From Deltaproteobacteria bacterium (GTDB lineage: Bacteria > Myxococcota > JACPTQ01), in the NCBI GenBank assembly GCA_016192705.1, contig JACPTQ010000074.1, positions 1 through 64,000 of the forward strand: 64,000 nt of DNA. The letters are read 5' to 3'. The notes beneath the pieces are model-generated. The model was given only the letters and a program-made list of their open reading frames with translations. It did no database searches and was not told where the DNA came from. How positions within the stretch are numbered: position 1 is the first letter of the stretch; each line of letters starts with the position of its first letter. The translations under genes were made by a program, and so were the position numbers. Positions 24,506 through 55,078 of the stretch are shown piece after piece.

Positions 24506-24575
24506 TCGCTTGGGAGATATGACAAAACGCTTCCTTCCTGAAACCGACGATGAGGGGACTGTGGGGACAACGATC

Positions 24576-27305
24576 ATGATGCTTTTGACATTCGCTGGAG
24601 CAACCGGACATGGGACGAGGGCGCCCGCGAAAACGGCCCTTCCGAAGGGGCTCGACAAGAACGGCCGCCTCGTGGGCTCTGCGACGCCGGTCGCGTACGA
24701 CCTCGCGCTAACAATAGATCCGCGCGAGGCGCGCTTTTCCGGGCGGACGCGAATCAGCGTGAGGGTTGCGCGGGCGACGCGGGAAATCACGCTTCATGCG
24801 CGGGCCATGACGGTCACCGCGGCCTCGGCCAAGGTGGGCAAGAAGGTTGTGCCGGCGTCGACCACAGCGGCGTACGCACCCGGCGAGCTCGAGGAGCCGT
24901 CGCTCGTGACGCTCGCATTCGCCGAGCCGCTCCCGCGCGGCCTGGCGGTTCTCGAACTTGCGTACAACGCGCCGTTCGATACGAAGTTGTCGGGGCTGTA
25001 TCGCGTTAAGGACGGTGCCGAGTGGTACGCGTTCACGCAGTTCGAGGCCAACGACGCACGGCGAGCGTTTCCGTGCTTCGACGAACCGGCGTTCAAGGTG
25101 CCGTTCGCGATTTCGCTCACCGTGCCGAAGGGTCAGCTGGCGTTTGCGAACAACATCGAGAAAGCGCGGTCGGACAGCGCCGACGGGAAATGGACAACCG
25201 TGACGTTCACGAAATCGGAGCCACTTCCAACGTACCTCGTCGCGTTCGCGGTTGGACCGCTCGACGTGCGCGATGGCGAACAGGTCGGGAAAATCCCGGT
25301 TCGGCTCATCGCGACAAAGGGCAAGGCCGCGCTCGGCGCAATTGCGCTCGACGCAACGGTCGCTCTGCTTAAGGGCCTCATCGCCTATTTCGGTTCGCCG
25401 TATCCTTATAAGAAGCTGGATATCGTCGCGGTGCCGGAGTTTGCGGCGGGCGCGATGGAAAACTCGGGTCTCATCACGTTCCGCGAGGAGCTTGTCCTCC
25501 TTGATCCCAAGCAGACGGGCGAACAGGCGATGCGGCGCGCGGCGAGCGTCATTGCGCACGAACTCGCGCACCAATGGTTTGGGAACTGGGTCACGATGAA
25601 GTGGTGGAACGACCTTTGGCTGAACGAGGCGTTCGCGACGTGGATCACGAGCAAGATCGTCGACAGCTGGAAACCCGCGTATCGATTGGCGATGGAGGAC
25701 ATCGTCGATAAGGGGCACGCCATGGCGACCGATGCGCTCGCGGCGGCCCGGAAAATTCGGCAGCCGGTCTTAAATGGGTCGGACGCGGAGGAGGCGTTCG
25801 ACGCGATCACGTACGAGAAGGGCGCTGCGGTGCTCGGGATGGTTGAGAGTTGGGTGGGCGAAGCGGCTTTCCGAAACGGCGTGCGCGCGTATTTGAAAAA
25901 GCACGCGTGGGGGAACGCGACGGCGGAAGACCTGCTCGGCGCGCTGTCGAAAGCGGCGAAGAAGGACGTCGTCGCGGTCGCCGAAAGTTTCATCGACCAG
26001 TCGGGTGTTCCGCTTGTGAACATCGAACCCATTTGCGACAAGCGGGGCGTCAAGCTCAAGGTCAGGCAGGCTCGGTATCACGCGCTCGGCGCTGGCGAGC
26101 CGCGCGAGAAGCGGAGCGGCAGCAAGCGCTGGGCGGTGCCTGTTTGCGCGCGCTTGGAAGGGGCGGAAAGCTCCGCCGGACACACGGTCTGCGGAGTCGC
26201 GTCGCACGAAACATCGACGCTGGAGGTCAAGGGCGCGGCGTGTCCGGTGGCGGTCGTTCCGAACGTTGGCGAGAAAGGCTACTACCGATATTCGTTGCCA
26301 GCGGAGTGGATGCAAAAGCTCGTGGGCGCAAGGCTGTCTGCGGCCGAGCGGCTCGGTGTCGTCATGAACGCCGCCGCGCTGCTCAAATCGGGCGCGCTGA
26401 ACTCGGACGACTTTTTCAATCTGCTCCAGGGTTTCAGCGGTGACCAAGACCGCTTTGTCGTTGACGCGGTCGTGGGTGGGCTTCGGCTTGCCGACGTTGC
26501 GCTCGTCGACGACGCTTCGCGCGCCGGATACCGCGAGTTGGTACGACGAACGCTGGGACCGGTTCTCGCGCGCCTCGGCGTTCGCGCGCCGACAGCCCCC
26601 GAGGACGCCGACACGAAGCTCCTTCGGCGCACGGTATTTGCCGCGCTCGGTTCACTCGCGGAAAGTCGGGAGGTTCTCGATGAAGCCGAACGGGTCGCGG
26701 ACCTTTACTTAGCCGACCGAACATCGGTCGATCCGGACCTCGCGATTGCGGCGGCGAACCTTGCATCGCGGCGCGGTGGAGACGCGCGATTTGACGGCTG
26801 GGTGAAACTCATTGAAGGGTCGGAGAACCCGCAGCAGCGCCAAGTCGCGCTATACGGGCTAGGCGGCTTCTCCGAAAAGGGGCTCGCCGCGCGTGCGCTC
26901 GATTTTGCGCTCACCGACAGCGTCAAGAAGCAGGACACGTTTTATATCCCGTCGATCATGTTTAGCCATTACACGACGCGGGATTTGGCGTACCAGTGGC
27001 TCAAGGACAACTTTGAGAAACTAAAGAAGCGGATTCCCGAAAGCCACATCGGCCGCCTTTACGGTGGGTTCGGTGTCTTTGCGTCGCCGGATCGCCGCAA
27101 GGACGCGGAAAAGTTCTTTGGCGCCCCCGAACGAAAACTCGAAGGAGGCGAGCGTCGACTCGCCGAGGGCCTCGAGCTTCTCGATTTGTCGATCGCGCTC
27201 CACCGCCGCGAAGGCGAGCGCGCCCGTCGCTACCTTACGTCGCTCACACCGCAAGGCGCCCCGGTCAAGCGCGTCTCAGAAGCGGAAAAACGGTCCGCGA
27301 ACTGA
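24576..27305 (+). CDS. M1 family aminopeptidase
   Basis: This zinc aminopeptidase removes N-terminal residues from peptides. It has the exopeptidase motif GAMEN, the zinc motif HELAHQWFGNWVT and the third ligand Glu in LNEAFATW, followed by a large helical ERAP1-like C-terminal domain. The frame is open from 24510 (TTG), with in-frame ATG codons at 24519, 24576 and 24579. The one at 24576 follows GTGGGGAC at a good distance and fits a divergent consensus -35 at 24499, so it is preferred with low certainty. A hydrophobic start (MMLLTFAGATG) may be a short signal. Length about 909 residues. Confidence 0.93.
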   Translation: MMLLTFAGATGHGTRAPAKTALPKGLDKNGRLVGSATPVAYDLALTIDPREARFSGRTRISVRVARATREITLHARAMTVTAASAKVGKKVVPASTTAAYAPGELEEPSLVTLAFAEPLPRGLAVLELAYNAPFDTKLSGLYRVKDGAEWYAFTQFEANDARRAFPCFDEPAFKVPFAISLTVPKGQLAFANNIEKARSDSADGKWTTVTFTKSEPLPTYLVAFAVGPLDVRDGEQVGKIPVRLIATKGKAALGAIALDATVALLKGLIAYFGSPYPYKKLDIVAVPEFAAGAMENSGLITFREELVLLDPKQTGEQAMRRAASVIAHELAHQWFGNWVTMKWWNDLWLNEAFATWITSKIVDSWKPAYRLAMEDIVDKGHAMATDALAAARKIRQPVLNGSDAEEAFDAITYEKGAAVLGMVESWVGEAAFRNGVRAYLKKHAWGNATAEDLLGALSKAAKKDVVAVAESFIDQSGVPLVNIEPICDKRGVKLKVRQARYHALGAGEPREKRSGSKRWAVPVCARLEGAESSAGHTVCGVASHETSTLEVKGAACPVAVVPNVGEKGYYRYSLPAEWMQKLVGARLSAAERLGVVMNAAALLKSGALNSDDFFNLLQGFSGDQDRFVVDAVVGGLRLADVALVDDASRAGYRELVRRTLGPVLARLGVRAPTAPEDADTKLLRRTVFAALGSLAESREVLDEAERVADLYLADRTSVDPDLAIAAANLASRRGGDARFDGWVKLIEGSENPQQRQVALYGLGGFSEKGLAARALDFALTDSVKKQDTFYIPSIMFSHYTTRDLAYQWLKDNFEKLKKRIPESHIGRLYGGFGVFASPDRRKDAEKFFGAPERKLEGGERRLAEGLELLDLSIALHRREGERARRYLTSLTPQGAPVKRVSEAEKRSAN

Positions 27306-45733: not shown

Positions 45734-47466
45734 CTAAAGACCGCTGGAGAGCCCCCAGTTCGCCGTGATCGCCCTCACGTCGAAGTCGTCGACATTGCCG
45801 TTTCCGTCGACATCGGACATCTCGTCGAACGCCGCACCGCCCCGCTCTTCGCCGTAGCGCGCCGCAAGGTCGAGCAGATCGCTGCCGTCGACCCGGCCCG
45901 AGGCGTTCACGTCGGCCGGCACGCCCGGTTGCACGAGCCGGAGCGCCTCATGCCCCTCGTCCAACCGCACCGCCATCACCGGTGACGGCACGGGCAAGTC
46001 AAACGACTGCGACGCCTTATCGACCAACACGTCAACCTTCGCGACGCCGCCTTCGTGGAGCACCTCGAGCGGCATCCGCATTGGAAACGCCCGTCCGCTC
46101 GGCTCAGACACCGTGATGCGCGCCACAAGCCCGCCCGCGGTCGATACCGTTTTGCTTGCGAGCACAAATTTCGGGTACCCGGTTTCGCGGAGCCACGCAT
46201 TAAAGAAGGGCGTCAAATCAAACCCCGAGGTCGCCTTCATCACGTCCTCAAACGTTTTGATCGACACGCGCTCGCCGCTCTGTTGCGCAAGGAAGTTTCG
46301 CACGCCCGCAAAGAACGCCGCGTCGCCAACGGTGCGTCGAAGCATATGCAAAACCGCCGCGCCTTTTTGGTAAACAACACGGATATATTGCTCCGCCCCT
46401 GGGCCATCGATCGGCCCGTCGGCGCCTGGCCCAACGCCACCGCGGTATTCTTCTTGCGACGTGTGGAGATGCGCCCACGTTCCTGTGCGCGCGTTCGAGT
46501 GCAAAACCGCAAGATACTCTGCGAACCCTTCGGAGAGCCAATTCGATTCGAAGGTCGCCGGCGCCACATGAATGCCAAACCACTGGTGCGCCGCTTCGTG
46601 CGAGAAGACCTCGAACGCGGTCTCGTTGAAACCCTCGTCCCGATCCTCGAAAAGAAACTCGGCGATAAAAAAAGTCGACTGCTGGGCTACCCCACCCGAG
46701 AATGCCGAGTTGAGCATCGCCGCGTCGAGCTTGCCATACGGGTAATCGACGAACAGCCTCGAAAACAGTTCAACCGCTGACACCGTATGGTTCAAAAATT
46801 TGTCGTGCGTCGACTCGTAGCCTCCCATCGTCGCGATTCGAACGGGGACATTCTTTGTCGCGACGCGCGCGGTCGCCTCTTTCGTCACCATTTGGCCGAT
46901 CGACAACAAGATCCAAGGCGTCGGCTCAAACGAGACGAAGCGGTGGCGCGCCCGTCCGTTTGCGGTTGTGACGCCCACGCGGTCGCCGAGGGCGTTTACG
47001 AGCAGCGATTCGGGAACGTCGACGGTGAGGTCGATGTTGAAGCGATCGGCCCACGGGCCATTGTACGAAATCGGGTAGAAATAAACGCCGAGAAGGTGCG
47101 AGAGGCGGCTCTGGACAACACAGTACGCGGACTGGACGCCGCACGAAATCGGGCCCTTGGCCTCGACGACAAACGTGACGGTCTCGCCAGCGCCGAGCGT
47201 GCGGCCGTATGAGACGACGAGCACGCCGTTTGAATGCGCATACGCGACATCGGCACCGCCCGGTGTATGGACCGAGCTAACCGTTACGTGTGTCTGTTGC
47301 CTTTCATGAAAGCCGCGGTGCGCTTCATCGCCGAGTGCGCGTGCTCCGCCGCAAAGAACTCGGCTTTAACGCGCTGCCGATCGACCGCCGCGGCCTGCGC
47401 TGACAGAGGCGCCGTCTCCATGAGCGACGCAAAAACGACAACAGAAAAGGCTTCGCTCCGCGTCAT
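45734..47466 (-). pseudogene. Frameshifted second copy of the M1-dockerin protease
   Basis: This is a tandem paralogue of the gene at 47486-49354. Its first 60 codons (signal peptide, then VDRQRVKAEFF to AAFMKGN) end at a TAA at 47284-47286. A second frame resumes with VTVSSVHTPGGADVAYAHS and is open to 45734, with the zinc motif HEAAHQWFG, SEGFAEYL and a complete dockerin. Compared with the intact copy, 136 bases are missing at the junction, which shifts the frame. A GTG at 47224 could start a 496-residue product, but without a signal peptide it would stay in the cytoplasm. Confidence 0.8.
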
Positions 47467-47485
47467 CGTGACACCCTTGAATCGG

Positions 47486-49354
47486 CTATTGGCCGCTTGA
47501 AAGCCCCCAGTTCGCCTTGATCGCGTTCACGTCGAACTCGTCGACATCGCCATTCCCGTCGACATCGGACATCTCGTCGAACGCCGCGCCGCCCCGCTGC
47601 TCGCCGTAGCGCGCCGCAAGGTCGAGCAGATCGCCGCCGTCGACCCGGCCCGACGCGTTCACATCCGCGGGAACACCCGGCTGCACGAGCCGAAGCGCTT
47701 CGTGCGCCTCGTCCAACCGCACCGCCAACACCGGCGACGGCACCGGCAAGTCAAACGACTGCGACGCCTTGTCGACAAACACGTCGACCTTGGCCGCGCC
47801 ACCTTCGTGGAACACCTCGAGCGGCACGCGCATCGGAAACGCCCGACCGCTCGGCTCGGACACTGTGATGCGCGCGACGAGCCCGCCCGCGGTCGAAATC
47901 ATTTTGCTCGCGAGGACAAACTTCGGATAACCGGTTTCGCGCAGCCACACATTAAAGAAGGGCGTCAAATCAAACCCCGCGGTCGTCTCCATGACGTCCT
48001 CAAACGTTTTTATCGGCACGCGCTCGCCGCTCTGCTGCGCGAGGTAGTTTCGCACGCCCGTAAAGAACGCCGTCTCACCCACGTAGCGTCGAAGCATGTG
48101 CAAAACCGCCGCGCCCTTTTCGTAGACGACGCGGAAATAATCGCCCGGCCCCGGTCCATCGATCGGGCCATCGGTGCTCGGCCCCACGACGCCGCGGTAG
48201 TCCTCTTGCGCCGCGTGTAAATGCGCCCAGGTCGCCGTGCGCGCGTTCGAGTGCAGCACCGCGAGGTATTCCGCGAACCCTTCGGAGAGCCAGTTCGAAT
48301 CGTTCGTCGCGGGCGCAACGTGATTGCCAAACCATTGGTGCGCCGTTTCGTGCGAGAAGACTTCGAGGATGAGCTCGGTCCAGCCCGCATCGCCAGACTG
48401 GAACAGCACTTCGCCGATGTAAAACGTCGCTTGCGGCGCCATACCGCCGCTAAACGCCGAGTTGGTCATCGCCACGTCGAGCTTGCCGTAAGGGTAATCG
48501 AGAAACAGATTCGAAAAGAGTTCGATCGCCGCGACCGTGTGGTTCAAGAATTTGTCGTGCGTCGATTCGTAGCCGGTCATCGTTGCGATGCGGACGGGGA
48601 CGTCTTTTGTTGCGACGTGCGCGGTCGCCTCTTTCGTGACCATTTGGCCAATCGACAGCGTGACGAACGGCGTCGGCTCGAACGACACGAAGCGATGCCG
48701 CGCGCGCCCATTCGCCGTGGTGACGCCCGCGCGATTGCCGGGTGCGTTCACGAGGAGCGCGTCGGGAACGTCGACGGTGAGGTCGATGTTGAAGCGGTCG
48801 GCCCAGGGGCCGTCGTACGAAATCGGGTAGAAGTAAACGCCGAGAAGGTGCGAGAGGCGGCTTTGCACGACGCAGTAATCCGACTGCCCGCTGCACGAGA
48901 GCGGCCCTTGCGCGGCAACAACAAACGTGAACGTCTCGCCCGTGCTGAGCGTGCGGCCGTACGAGAGGATGAGGACGCCGTTTGAATGCGCGTACGAAAC
49001 CCCAGCGCCACCGGGCGTTTGAACCGATGTCACGGTGACGTCAGAAAGAATGAAGGACGACGTGCTGATGGGGCTTCGCGCGGCGATTGAGACGGTCGCG
49101 GTCACGCGAAAATCGCCGGTTGACGGTGTCATGACGACTTCGAGCCGTTCGTCGGTGATGTCGGTGCCGGACGTCGGCTCGGTGTTGCCTTTCATGAGCG
49201 CGGCGCCGCGGTTGACCGCCGTCTGCGCGCGCTCCTTCGCGAACAGCTCGGCTTTGGCGCGCTGTCGATCGAGCGCCGAAAGTTGCGCTGACGCGGGAGC
49301 GGAAATGCCGAGCAACATCGCAACCGATAAACAAGCGGCTCTGAACCGAGTCAT
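47486..49354 (-). CDS. Secreted M1-like metalloprotease with C-terminal dockerin
   Basis: The 622-residue protein has a signal peptide (SVAMLLGISAPASAQ) and an N-terminal M1 beta domain (about 55-240). The zinc site is HETAHQWFG (about 335-343) with the third ligand in LSEGFAEYL. A helical part, a C-terminal beta domain (VLASKMISTAGGLVARITV) and a type I dockerin (about 564-622) follow. The dockerin has two calcium loops, DVNASGRVDGGD and DVDGNGDVDEFD. The GAMEN exopeptidase motif of M1 is replaced by GGMAPQ, so the cleavage mode may differ. The ATG overlaps the cohesin gene stop (ATGA). Confidence 0.9.
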   Translation of the reverse strand: MTRFRAACLSVAMLLGISAPASAQLSALDRQRAKAELFAKERAQTAVNRGAALMKGNTEPTSGTDITDERLEVVMTPSTGDFRVTATVSIAARSPISTSSFILSDVTVTSVQTPGGAGVSYAHSNGVLILSYGRTLSTGETFTFVVAAQGPLSCSGQSDYCVVQSRLSHLLGVYFYPISYDGPWADRFNIDLTVDVPDALLVNAPGNRAGVTTANGRARHRFVSFEPTPFVTLSIGQMVTKEATAHVATKDVPVRIATMTGYESTHDKFLNHTVAAIELFSNLFLDYPYGKLDVAMTNSAFSGGMAPQATFYIGEVLFQSGDAGWTELILEVFSHETAHQWFGNHVAPATNDSNWLSEGFAEYLAVLHSNARTATWAHLHAAQEDYRGVVGPSTDGPIDGPGPGDYFRVVYEKGAAVLHMLRRYVGETAFFTGVRNYLAQQSGERVPIKTFEDVMETTAGFDLTPFFNVWLRETGYPKFVLASKMISTAGGLVARITVSEPSGRAFPMRVPLEVFHEGGAAKVDVFVDKASQSFDLPVPSPVLAVRLDEAHEALRLVQPGVPADVNASGRVDGGDLLDLAARYGEQRGGAAFDEMSDVDGNGDVDEFDVNAIKANWGLSSGQ

Positions 49355-50193
49355 GGCGCCACCTCGAGACGCCCGCCGATCCAGGTCACGGGTGTTGGTG
49401 TGTTGAGCGCATCCCGAACCTGACGGGATGTCGACATGAAGGCGATGTCGGTCGCACTCTTCGAGAGAACGTCAAACGTGAGGGTCCAAAGCGTGCGCCT
49501 TCCCGATAAGTTCGTGCCGCGGCCGTCCCAGCGCTTGAGCTCCGCGATTCCGGCGAGAATCAGTCCGGGCGCGGATTCGGCGGCGTGCGACAAAATCGGT
49601 GTGGTCAACGCGTTGCCGGGCGACGCGGCCCGAAGGCGAAGCACCGCGGGATCAAACCCGAGGTCAAAGGCGGCCCCCGACACGGTTCCAAGGTCCTGTG
49701 TCACGACGGTCAACTCGAGCGTGCCGGCCGATGCCGATGTCTTGGTGAGGCAGACGCGGCCACCGGTGCACGGCCCCGCGGGTGTGAATTCGCCCGGAAG
49801 GCCCGTGATGGGCGGTGGACCATCGGGGCGCGGTGCGGAAACGGCGCCGTCGGTCACGGCAAAAGTAAGGGGCGACGAGGCGCGCGTGTCGCGATGAACT
49901 TTGACTTGGCTCGTGCCAAAACCGGCCGACGACGGCACGAGCGCCACGACTTCGTTGGCGTTCCAGCGAATGATCGCGGCGGCGTAACCATTGAACGTGA
50001 CTTTGCCGCTGCCCGACGTCGCACCGAAGCCGACCCCCTTGAGCGTCACCGCCGTTCCCGCGGGACCCGACACCGGCGACAGCGTCGCGAGGACGATGTC
50101 GTCGCTCGAAACCGTCGAGCACGCGATCGGCGCGACCAGCGCGAAGGAGAACGCCACGCGTACCGACGTCAAATGGTGGCGTCGCAACGTCAC
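49351..50193 (-). CDS. Lipoprotein with TIG and cohesin-like domains
   Basis: The 280-residue product has a signal with lipobox (ALVAPIACS, Cys25) and an IPT/TIG immunoglobulin-like domain (about 33-115: LSPVSGPAGTAVTLKGVGFG). After a Pro-rich linker comes a C-terminal cohesin-like domain (about 140-280) with LTVVTQDLGTVSGAAFDLGF, DPAVLRLRAASPGNAL, GLILAGIAELKRW and LWTLTFDVL in the strand order of cohesins. Cohesins bind dockerins, and the next gene (4-base overlap) encodes a dockerin protease. It is therefore a probable membrane anchor for that protease. The GTG start overlaps the selD stop by four bases. Confidence 0.82.
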   Translation of the reverse strand: MTLRRHHLTSVRVAFSFALVAPIACSTVSSDDIVLATLSPVSGPAGTAVTLKGVGFGATSGSGKVTFNGYAAAIIRWNANEVVALVPSSAGFGTSQVKVHRDTRASSPLTFAVTDGAVSAPRPDGPPPITGLPGEFTPAGPCTGGRVCLTKTSASAGTLELTVVTQDLGTVSGAAFDLGFDPAVLRLRAASPGNALTTPILSHAAESAPGLILAGIAELKRWDGRGTNLSGRRTLWTLTFDVLSKSATDIAFMSTSRQVRDALNTPTPVTWIGGRLEVAP

Positions 50194-51236
50194 GCGCGCA
50201 CCTCGATCCGACCGTCGCCCGCGACAATCTCGCCAACCTCGACCGCGAGCGCGCCGTTCGAAACGAGCGCATCCGCGAAAGCGGCAACGCCCTTTGAATC
50301 GATCGCGACCAGAAGCCCACCGGACGTTTGAGCGTCGGCGAGCAGCGTTCGGGTCGCGCCGTCAACGCGCGCGTCAAAATCCGTGAACGATTCGGCTTGC
50401 TCGAGATTCGCCTTAGACCCGCCCGGAACAACGCCCTGCTCCGCGAGCGTTCGCGCGCCCGGCAGCAGCGGCACGGCGCCAGCATGAATCACAGCGCCGA
50501 CTCCCGAACCGAGCGTCATCTCGTGGAGGTGCCCGAGGAGCCCGTACCCCGTGATGTCGGTTGCGGCATGAACATGCGCGCGCACCCCCCGCATCGCATT
50601 TCCCGCGGCGCGGTTGAGTTCCTTCATCGATTGCACCGCGGTGGCCACAACGTCGGCCGGTGCGACGCCGCGCTTCACGGCGGTCGAAATGACGCCGGTC
50701 CCGATCGCCTTCGTCAACACAAGGCGGTCGCCCACGTGCGCACCGATGTTGCGGATAACTTCGGCCGGGTGAACGCGCCCAACGACCGACAACCCGTACT
50801 TTGGTTCGGGATCGTCAATCGTGTGGCCGCCGACGATTCCAACGCCGGCTTCGAGCGCCTTGTCGGCGCCACCGCGTAAAATCGCTGTAAGCCCGTCGAG
50901 CGGAAGCGTCTTCGTTGGGTACGCCGCGATGTTGAGCGCGACAAACGGCGTGCCCCCCATGGCGTAAACATCCGAGAGCGCGTTGGCGGCGGCGATGGCT
51001 CCAAAGTCGTAAGGGTCGTCGACGATCGGCGTGAAAAAGTCGGTCGTCAGGACGAGCGCCTCCGACGGACTTACTTGAACGACCGCGGCGTCGTCGGACG
51101 TTTCCATGCCGACCACGAGCCGCTCGTCATCCCAGCGAGGTAATTCGCGCAACACGTGCGCGAGGTCCGCCGCGCGGACCTTGCAGGCTCAACCAGCGCC
51201 GTGACTGAACGCCGTGAGCCGAAACGCCGAATCCAC
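50190..51236 (-). CDS. selD: Selenide, water dikinase, predicted selenoprotein
   Basis: SelD makes selenophosphate from selenide and ATP for selenocysteine and selenouridine synthesis. An uninterrupted frame from 51155 already gives most of the enzyme (MGGTPFVALNIAAYP, VGGHTIDDPEPKYG, HAATDITGYGLLGH). Upstream the same frame continues through one TGA (51189-51191) to a GTG at 51236 preceded by TGGGAG, and reads RLTAFSHGAG-U-ACKV. This aligns with the SHGAGCGCK active site of SelD, with the TGA at the catalytic Cys position (residue 16) and the essential Lys at 19. Many SelD proteins carry Sec here. Full length would be 348 residues. Confidence 0.93.
51164..51180 (-). promoter_or_regulatory. 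Candidate bacterial SECIS hairpin in selD
   Basis: Eight bases after the in-frame TGA the minus strand folds into a perfect 7-bp stem, GGTCCGC/GCGGACC, with a GCG loop. The position (apical loop about 16-18 bases after the TGA) fits bacterial SECIS elements, which lie just downstream of the UGA inside the coding region and bind SelB. Confidence 0.6.
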
Positions 51237-52068: not shown

Positions 52069-52548
52069 ATGAAAACCCATGAGCGTGAGCCGAAGCAGAA
52101 ACCTGCGGAGCCGGTTGATGATGAGTTCGATGACACCGGCGCGGGTAAGCGACGCCCTCGCACCATCCCTGCGCGGCGGCTGACGCGCGAGGAGATGCGC
52201 GTCGGGGCGGAGTTGCGACAATCGGTTCAATACCGACGGCCGCAGCTTCGCTCGGAGTGTCGCGAGGGGCAACGCCCGTGCCCGTTTGTGTCGTGCAAAT
52301 TCAACCTCTACCTCGACGTGAACCCTGAGACCGGCTCGATCAAACTCAATTTCCCCGACAAAGAGATTTGGGAGGTTGAGCAGTCGTGCGCGCTCGACGT
52401 CGCCGAGAAGGGCGGGTCGACGCTCGAGGAGATCGGCCTCATCATGAACTTGACGCGCGAGCGAATTCGCCAACTTGAAAACTCGGGGCTCACGAAGATC
52501 AAGGAAGGAACGACCGATATTCGGCTTAAGGATTTCGAACCGGGATAA
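52069..52548 (+). CDS. Sigma-70 region-4-like DNA-binding protein
   Basis: The 159-residue product has a charged N-terminal part, a [19 protein letters not shown] segment and a C-terminal helix-turn-helix [21 protein letters not shown]. The last matches region 4 of sigma-70, which contacts the -35 element. Regions 1-3 are absent, so it is not a full sigma factor. Such stand-alone region-4 proteins occur in Myxococcota. GGGAGG precedes the ATG. The end overlaps the convergent repeat-protein gene by 23 bases. Confidence 0.8.
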
Positions 52549-55078
52549 CGACCAAACGAAGTCCGCGCACCTCGTCGCCACGACGAATCTCGACTGTTTC
52601 CCTGCCGAGCGATTCAAAGTTCCGCGCTGATACCCGAATCGTCGCCGTCCCCATCGGAAGCCCGGTCAGCCGAAACCGCCCGACCGCATCGGTTCGCGCG
52701 ACGCGACCGCCCACATCGACCGTTGCCAGCGCGACGCCGCGCCCGTCCGCGTCGGACACCACTTCGCCCGATACCGCACCGCCTTCAACGAGATCGATCT
52801 CAACTTCACTCGCCTCCCCCACTTTGACGCTCACGACCTCTGTCGCCGAGACAAGCCCGTCCGCATCAACGCGAAGCTTGTGCAGACCGGCCGGCAGTGG
52901 CCCGAGCTCGAATCGGCCGTCCACGCCTTGAGCCGTCGCGCCCGACGGCGTCACCACCGTGAACGCGTCGACCAACCGAAAGCGGTCGCGCGTCACCCGC
53001 CCCACGATCCGCCCGCCCTCGACAAGCTTCAGATCAAACTCCGCATCCAGCGGAACGCCCGCCCGCACGATCGATGGAAACCCGTCCTTCGCCACGCGCA
53101 CGGCGTAACGCCCGTCGACAACCGCCTCGAAGCGAAATCGCCCCGTCTCATCTGATGTCGTGGTTCGCGGCGCCACGCGCACCCGCAGAGGCCCACGCTC
53201 AACTGTCAACGCCACCTCGGCACCCGCAACCGGCGCATCGGCGCCATCGAGCACGCGCCCTAAGACGCGGCGCTCCCCGGCGACGAGGCGCAACACCACG
53301 TCCTCCTTGAATGTGCGCGCCGTAACAACGACTTCGACCTCGCCCCCGCTGAAAGGCTCCTTGACCGCCTCCACCCGTTTTCGCCCGGGACCGCAGCGCA
53401 AACGAAACGCACCATTCTCGTGCGCGCGCATCACCGCCTCGTACCGCCGTGTCGCAACGTCGACGACCCGCACGAGGGCCCCACCCAACGCACGCCCCGC
53501 CGCATCTTCCACGACGCCCGCCACCCCGCTCGCGCGCGCCACCCGCACATCAAGCGTCACCAAACCGCCTTCTGCAAGCGACGCTTCCTTCGAATGACCC
53601 GCCGCAAAGAGAGGATGCGTCGCCCGAACGGCGATGGCACCGGGCGAAATCCCCGACACGTGAAAGCGTCCCGCCGCATCCGTCTTGAATGACCGCATCT
53701 CTTTGTACGGCACGCCAAGCTTTGCAAACGTCGCGGTAAGCGCCCGAACCGTGAGATCAGAAACAATGGTGACGCCCGTTTCACTCGACATCGACGTCAC
53801 TTCAATCGCCGCCGCTTCGATGGGCTCGTCGCTCGGCCCGGTTACGCGCCCCGAAACAGCACCCGTCGGCGGCAGTTCGATTTCAACACCTGCATCGCCC
53901 ACATCGACGCGAATCGATTTTGCGCGAACGGGGGGCTGCCCAGGTGCAAACACGGAAGCGAAAACGGATAAACCACCATCGGCGCGCGCGGGCCAAAGCG
54001 AACGCGAAAACCGGCCATCCGGCGCGGTGACGGAGGCGACAGGGAAAACGGACAGCTCCTCCTCCGAGAAGAGGACGACCGCCCCCAGAACGCCTTTTCG
54101 ATCTGAACCGACCACTTGACCCTTTATGCGTGGCGCGGGCTGGACATTCAGTGTCGCGGTGCGGTGCGGCGCCGCAGGACTGACTTCAACCGTCACGGAC
54201 CGCGACGCTTCGCCCGTTCGCGTTTCCGCACGGACCCAATAAATGCCCGGCGGAATGGGCGACAGCGCGAATTCGCCACTCCGCCCGCTCGACGTCACAA
54301 GCGGCGGAAACAGACCGCTCCCCGCGATCGTGACCGTCGCCTGGACGGGACCGGACGGCGATCGAACAACGCCACTCACCTCGCCGACCGGATCGAGCAC
54401 AACGTCCGCGCGATCGCCGGGCAACAGTTCGGAACGCCCTCCGGCTGCGTACCCCGCCTTCTCAACCACCAATGCGACGGGAGCCGCAGAAAGTCCGCGC
54501 AACCGAAAAACGCCGTCCGCATTTGTGAGCGCGAGCGACGGCACCGCGCCTTCACCGTCGAATCGCGGCTCGGCGCGAACAACGGCATGGGGAATGGGGA
54601 GTGAATCCGGCGTTGTCACGCGCCCTTCGAGAACCGACTCGCGCTCGAGCGCTGCGGCGCCCAATCGACCGCCAACAGAAATCCACCGCGACGCAAACCC
54701 GGGCAAGGCCGCGAAAACCCGCTCGGCACCTGATGTCGCGGGCGTAGCCAGCGCCGTGGCATCCAGGCGTGCATCGCCCTCCGCGCCCAAGAGACGGTAT
54801 CCCGTGCTCGCCGCCAAATCGCAGAGGGAAGACTCAACGTCAGCGACCAGACCGACGCCGAGCGCCGCCGTCATCATCGATGGCCCGAGTGTCCCCGCAA
54901 GCAGCGTCACACCGCGATGCGACACGTGCGTGCCGAGCGTCGCCAGCACCGCGTCGCGCCGAGCCGCGCCGTTCAACGACTCGTCGCTGGGTGCGGCAAC
55001 GGAAACCCGCAGCGTCACGCCTCGCTCCGCTCCTGGGATGAGCGCCGAGAAGAGAGCCGCTAGCCACGCGCCCCGCAA
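52526..55078 (-). CDS. Large exported protein with carboxypeptidase-regulatory-like repeats
   Basis: The 850-residue product (TTG start, AAGGA 7-8 bases upstream) has a short signal and a mixed N-terminal domain (about 20-150). A series of about seven CarboxypepD_reg/CnaB-like beta domains follows, recognised by repeated [50 protein letters not shown] and [10 protein letters not shown] patterns. These are Ig-like surface domains. It is the last gene of the kinase/TPR/sigma-54 activator operon and may be its envelope target or sensor partner. Confidence 0.85.

Follow-up and report, generated by a model that had tools for sequence, protein, structure and literature searches.

In the type I cellulosome of Acetivibrio (Clostridium) thermocellum, a cohesin fold receives a two-loop calcium dockerin located at the C-terminus of an enzyme, which is in this way carried on a cell-bound protein. 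The locus described here lies in a 64,000-nucleotide stretch of a Myxococcota genome (the window) and shares with that system the C-terminal two-loop dockerin and, by sequence profile, the cohesin, and it would share the placement of the enzyme on a cell-bound protein. It nevertheless departs from the cellulosome in having one cohesin per anchor, a single enzyme that is a peptidase and not a glycosidase, and no scaffoldin, and in carrying a putative lipid signal in a diderm host where cellulosomes use SLH or sortase anchoring. A cellulosome was rejected as an explanation of the locus: the single PF00963 cohesin of the genome lies in a single-cohesin protein, which leaves no multi-cohesin scaffoldin, and the two dockerins above the Pfam cut-off are both attached to M1 peptidases (one of the two genes being broken), which leaves no dockerin-bearing CAZymes. 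Cell-surface proteins with one cohesin are known in OlpA and OlpC of C. thermocellum and in ScaC of Ruminococcus flavefaciens; these anchor cellulosomal proteins in monoderms, whereas the anchor here belongs to a dedicated, translationally coupled gene pair.

Cohesin and dockerin modules outside cellulosomes were reportedly described by Peer et al. in 2009. Compared with the non-cellulosomal modules of Archaeoglobus fulgidus and of Clostridium perfringens glycosidases, the Myxococcota pair forms, within one phylum, a conserved module of two genes with a fixed architecture and, unlike those modules, has cohesins that fall mostly below Pfam detection. Passages of PMC9012536 and PMC2930009 document non-cellulosomal cohesins and dockerins, and a passage of the latter notes dockerins on peptidases of R. 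flavefaciens. Cohesin and dockerin proteins are likewise described, in passages of PMC9012536 and PMC10553843, from presumed non-degraders of cellulose, the ANME archaea and syntrophic sulfate reducers; those are scaffoldin-like multi-cohesin proteins, ABC binding proteins and adhesins, in contrast to the M1 peptidase and lipoprotein found here. Titles, abstracts and passages of the literature yielded no description of a conserved pair of single-cohesin lipoprotein and M1-dockerin. We propose that the locus encodes a dedicated clamp of one cohesin and one dockerin, probably calcium-dependent, by which a secreted M1 peptidase would be held at the envelope, and assign to this reading a probability of about 0.82.

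Organisation of the locus and its place in the genome

The assembly that contains the window comprises 5.21 Mb and is 96.65% complete. The original prediction had placed three open reading frames at this locus, two of them sharing four bases; all three are present where it put them and the shared bases are the ATGA listed in Table 1. A second overlap of 4 bp (50190-50193) joins the cohesin gene to selD, its probable operon partner. The start of selD lies upstream of the listed open reading frame, with an in-frame TGA in GAG-U-ACK (codon 51189-51191), and this SelD probably contains selenocysteine; the genome also encodes a tRNA-Sec above the Rfam cut-off. Elsewhere in the window, 52526-55078 of the minus strand encodes an 850-aa protein with about nine carboxypeptidase-regulatory-like repeats (Pfam).

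Table 1. Features of the locus, in window coordinates
Feature	Coordinates	Strand	Basis
Single-cohesin predicted lipoprotein, 280 aa (signal peptide with Cys25, TIG, cohesin)	49351..50193	-	ORF, Pfam, profiles
Signal peptide, putative lipidated Cys25 (APIA-C, imperfect lipobox)	50119..50193	-	sequence
TIG domain, residues 37-112	49858..50085	-	PF01833, 2.6e-12, above cut-off
Cohesin domain, residues 149-262 (Pfam match)	49408..49749	-	PF00963, 5.9e-7, 30.2 bits against a cut-off of 24.1; profile against PDB gives cohesins only
M1 peptidase, secreted, C-terminal type I dockerin, 622 aa	47486..49354	-	PF01433 (Peptidase_M1), 2.3e-25; PF00404; signal peptide ending ASA-Q by sequence
Zinc motif HETAH, residues 335-339	48338..48352	-	sequence, alignment
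Dockerin, two complete Ca loops (47630-47665 and 47531-47566)	47516..47668	-	PF00404, alignment
ATGA stop/start overlap of cohesin gene and M1-dockerin gene	49351..49354	-	ORFs
selD (selenide, water dikinase), upstream, 4-bp overlap with cohesin gene	50190..51236	-	AIRS/AIRS_C Pfam
Second M1-dockerin copy, 5'-broken, remaining frame without signal peptide	45734..47224	-	83% identity, deletion, dN/dS
N-terminal remnant of second copy, orphaned	47290..47466	-	matches copy 1 residues 1-59; reads into TAA

Two dockerin-tailed M1 protease genes had also been predicted, and here only one stood: 47486-49354 (copy 1) is intact, whereas 45734-47224 is broken by an out-of-frame deletion. Homology of this second copy to copy 1 extends from 47290 to 45740, beginning with a remnant that is 53% identical to its counterpart before the stop and continuing, after a deletion that is out of frame and has a net size of 136 nt (about 45 codons), into the remaining open frame, which is 83% identical to copy 1. 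The product of that frame matches Peptidase_M1 and Dockerin_1, the dockerin at 22.0 bits in Pfam (cut-off 22.9) and at 24.2 bits in a six-frame genome search. The dN/dS of the second copy against copy 1 is 0.10-0.17, which speaks for constraint on both copies during most of their divergence, and the break therefore looks recent. An assembly error is an alternative explanation of the break.

Within the whole genome, one PF00963 cohesin and two PF00404 dockerins exceed their cut-offs, and all of them lie within this 4.4 kb. If gene positions were random in a genome of several thousand genes, such an adjacency would be expected about once in a thousand. The position of the lone PF00963 cohesin among the only two over-cut-off dockerins of the genome, together with the recurrence of the pair at 11 other loci, strengthens and supports the suggestion that the two proteins may dock. 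A second TIG-cohesin lipoprotein of the same genome, 43% identical to that of the window, was found on another contig with a family-specific profile (L051:7068-7922, G000:C37); it scores 14.7 bits, below the PF00963 cut-off. No dockerin gene lies beside this paralogue, which counts against the clamp. Since this one genome has a second cohesin lipoprotein and a second dockerin gene, and since a role as intercellular adhesins has been proposed for cohesin and dockerin proteins of ANME archaea and of the sulfate reducers partnered with them (passages of PMC9012536 and PMC10553843), cohesin-dockerin binding could be real and the lipoprotein still serve several clients as a general anchor, or the enzyme be docked on neighbouring cells or matrix. 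We regard this as very unlikely, since a six-frame search of the whole 5.21-Mb genome gave no further dockerin above the PF00404 cut-off and an exact 4-bp overlap couples the lipoprotein and M1 genes in 9 of 12 loci; a dedicated pair is the reading that we retain.

Cohesin assignment of the partner lipoproteins

The reading of the lipoprotein product as a TIG domain followed by a cohesin, made originally by eye, was borne out by Pfam matches above cut-off for both domains, and comparison with the PDB pointed the same way. The lipoproteins were divided into group 1 (the window, its own paralogue L051, L032, L033, L034 and L035) and group 2 (L031 and L052-L055), and a group-1 profile searched against all PDB sequences returned cellulosomal cohesins only (10 of 10 chains, best E 5e-5). 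The AlphaFold2 (AF2) model of the window domain, for which the alignment consisted of six group-2 sequences, is poor (pLDDT 57), and the cohesin call for the window therefore rests on sequence profiles; those built without the window found its lipoprotein at 5.8e-9 and 1e-10. The window lipoprotein is the only one of the twelve found in pairs to exceed the PF00963 cut-off, with L032 at 17 bits and no match for the other ten.

No cohesin was found among PDB sequences with the group-2 profile, and a fold model of this group was needed for that reason. For the L093 domain (from the same locus as L053), AF2 with six group-2 sequences gave a confident, all-beta model with a pLDDT of 88.2 and a pTM of 0.85. 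The 27 PDB entries that match it best in fold are all cohesins, with a TM of about 0.6-0.7; among them are the non-cellulosomal ones of A. fulgidus (2xdh) and of C. perfringens (2jh2/2vo8), and those of OlpC, OlpA and ScaC. The alignments of the two groups matched each other in hhalign at 94.6% probability (E 6.6e-8), and hhalign of the group-1 profile against a single group-2 sequence gave no match. The group-2 profile finds L033 of group 1 with an E-value of 3.9e-7 and the window lipoprotein with one of 9.7e-4, and L090, which at that point stood outside all models, matches it at 2.9e-41.

In a leave-one-out test the lipoproteins were removed in turn, L034 and L035 together, and a profile of those remaining was run against 5,455 six-frame ORFs of the window and the fetched loci. 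Eleven of the twelve were recovered with E-values from 0.0066 to 1e-28 (window 1e-10, L032 1e-14, L033 2e-13, L031 1e-21, L052 4e-24, L053 4e-24, L054 9e-16, L090 1e-28, L055 7e-4, and 0.0066 and 0.0012 for L034 and L035, in either order), and all lipoproteins outranked the best unrelated ORF of their own search. The twelfth, L056, is only marginal at 0.033, which counts against the clamp. An early seed, the small lipoprotein L037a beside a vWA-cohesin-dockerin protein, gave an E-value of 9.1 with a profile that excluded it and was not counted.

Given that single profile scores are modest, with Dockerin_1 at its cut-off, and that the model of the window cohesin is poor, it might be argued that a beta-sandwich lipoprotein beside an EF-hand tail has, by chance or artefact, been over-read as a cohesin and a dockerin. 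This is barely credible in view of the PF00963 match above cut-off and the occurrence of twelve loci, and it is already contradicted by the confident cohesin fold matches of the relative L093 and by the leave-one-out recovery. All twelve lipoproteins have a signal-peptide cysteine. The window lipobox, A-P-I-A-C, has a proline at -3 in place of the expected [LVI][ASTVI][GAS]C, a further point against the clamp, and better lipoboxes are present in most relatives (e.g. LAGC, LGGC, VSGC).

The dockerin-bearing peptidase and the recurrence of the pair

Two complete calcium loops had been predicted in the dockerin of 47486-49354, and both the sequence and the alignment of relatives confirm them: D564-V-N-A-S-G-R-V-D572-G-G-D575 and D597-V-D-G-N-G-D-V-D605-E-F-D608. 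All 11 aligned members share D564, D572, D575 and D597. The M1-dockerin family as a whole keeps the dockerin calcium ligands in this alignment. Dockerin_1 scores 22.3 bits in the annotated protein (cut-off 22.9) and 29.2 bits in a six-frame genome search, and PF00404 is matched in 10 of 11 family members at E up to 1. The group-2 dockerins have a strongly conserved linker between the two calcium loops, RRxDGxYDPLYD, which is a candidate specificity element.

The enzyme resembles the M1 peptidases ERAP1, PepN and the short Deinococcus-type M1 in its HExxH...E zinc site, present in the window as HETAH with a downstream Glu in NWLSEGFAEY, and in its catalytic Tyr region. Unlike those enzymes, it is secreted, has a dockerin tail and lacks the GXMEN glutamate, which is absent from every pair member (SGGMAPQ of the window aligns to SGAMEN of ERAP1). 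Because this glutamate is missing, aminopeptidase activity is not to be assumed and 'protease' is to be read as a family call. In L032 (7503-9530), HExxH is replaced by HATSG while the dockerin and the cohesin partner are retained; this apparently dead peptidase counts against the clamp, in that a dead enzyme would be docked, if anything is docked.

Searches of 58 and subsequently 195 genomes from the phylum, with the intact M1-dockerin and with a family profile, gave another ten M1-dockerin genes in which the match runs into the dockerin. One further gene, L090, came from a scan of named genomes, in which loci of this kind were found only in Myxococcota and in unclassified Deltaproteobacteria or bacterium MAGs, the named records being Myxococcales, Myxococcaceae and Deltaproteobacteria MAGs. 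A scan of genome contigs with the window lipoprotein as single query gave no match. Each of the eleven M1-dockerin genes adjoins a same-strand gene for a product of 160-220 residues with a signal peptide ending in cysteine. The lipoprotein gene comes first in the window, L031, L052, L053, L054, L055 and L090, and the peptidase gene in L032, L033, L034, L035 and L056; L032, L034 and L035 have a gap of about 10-30 bp where the other pairs overlap.

This constant adjacency raises the possibility that the two proteins are partners without a cohesin-dockerin joint. The lipoprotein would then bind the M1 domain as its chaperone, inhibitor or activator, and the dockerin would be only an intramolecular calcium-stabilised tail. 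Such an explanation would also suit the group-2 cohesins, too divergent for Pfam and PDB sequence searches, and the many dockerins of the phylum that have no detectable cohesin (dockerins in 45 of 195 genomes, PF00963 cohesins in 6 of 195). Nevertheless, every pair found combines a cohesin-type lipoprotein with a dockerin, and in the same searches the M1 peptidases without a dockerin (L041, L042 and window 24510-27305) had no neighbour matching the cohesin profile, which makes a partnership of this other kind improbable. Docking of the dockerin in the cohesin is the reading carried forward. Over the 12 pairs, the distance matrix of the cohesin correlates with that of the M1 domain (r 0.84) and with that of the dockerin (r 0.78; permutation p about 2e-4), a matched divergence that fits partners and equally fits plain linkage or the common inheritance of neighbours.

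In L034 and L035, two binding-protein-dependent permease genes and a GH3 gene precede the pair (by Pfam in L034 and by gene order in L035), and we read the permeases as of peptide or oligopeptide type. An AraC-family regulator gene lies on one side or the other of the pairs of L052, L053 and L054 (Pfam) and of L055 (by sequence). These gene contexts hint at the use of nutrient peptides or muropeptides.

Proposed docking at the envelope and its wider meaning

It is suggested that the lipoprotein is exported and that its cysteine signal would lead to a lipid tether to a membrane, with the TIG domain as a stalk and the C-terminal cohesin as a single socket. The M1 metallopeptidase, secreted through Sec, would plug its C-terminal two-loop dockerin into this cohesin with calcium, so that one anchor would keep one peptidase at the envelope and prevent its release. 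Translational coupling through ATGA would cause the partners to be made together and may help their stoichiometry. We infer the physical binding, its calcium dependence, the lipidation, the membrane and face concerned, the localisation at the envelope and the substrate. Peptide scavenging, helped by the permease and GH3 genes just upstream of two pairs, is our guess at the function.

Other cohesin and dockerin loci were met in the phylum. One 4-Mb genome (G024, L077-L082) has sixteen dockerin matches and no PF00963 cohesin match, and is a candidate for hidden divergent cohesins. In a second (G017), a small lipoprotein gene precedes L037:2316-5904, which encodes a vWA protein whose single chain has a cohesin and, at the C-terminus, a dockerin-like region. 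A third (G052) has a row of lipoprotein genes at L036:5055-8983, with one PF00963 cohesin (5.9e-9) and two similar-looking neighbours, and its three dockerin matches lie away from this row.

Cohesins and dockerins outside cellulosomes have been puzzling, being scattered and seldom having an obvious partner; at these loci gene order names the partner twelve times. With a peptidase as cargo and a scaffold of one socket, two small proteins are enough for a direct test of what such a pair does, and about a dozen candidate new cohesin-dockerin pairs become available for protein engineering. Cohesins are under-annotated, as Pfam recognises only one in twelve in this family. More tentatively, at what we judge to be somewhat short of even odds, the Myxococcota may possess a hidden family of cohesins, small lipoproteins missed by databases and each serving one dockerin enzyme, in which case the pinning of single enzymes would be a general means of surface retention in diderms and many orphan dockerins would be partnered in this way.
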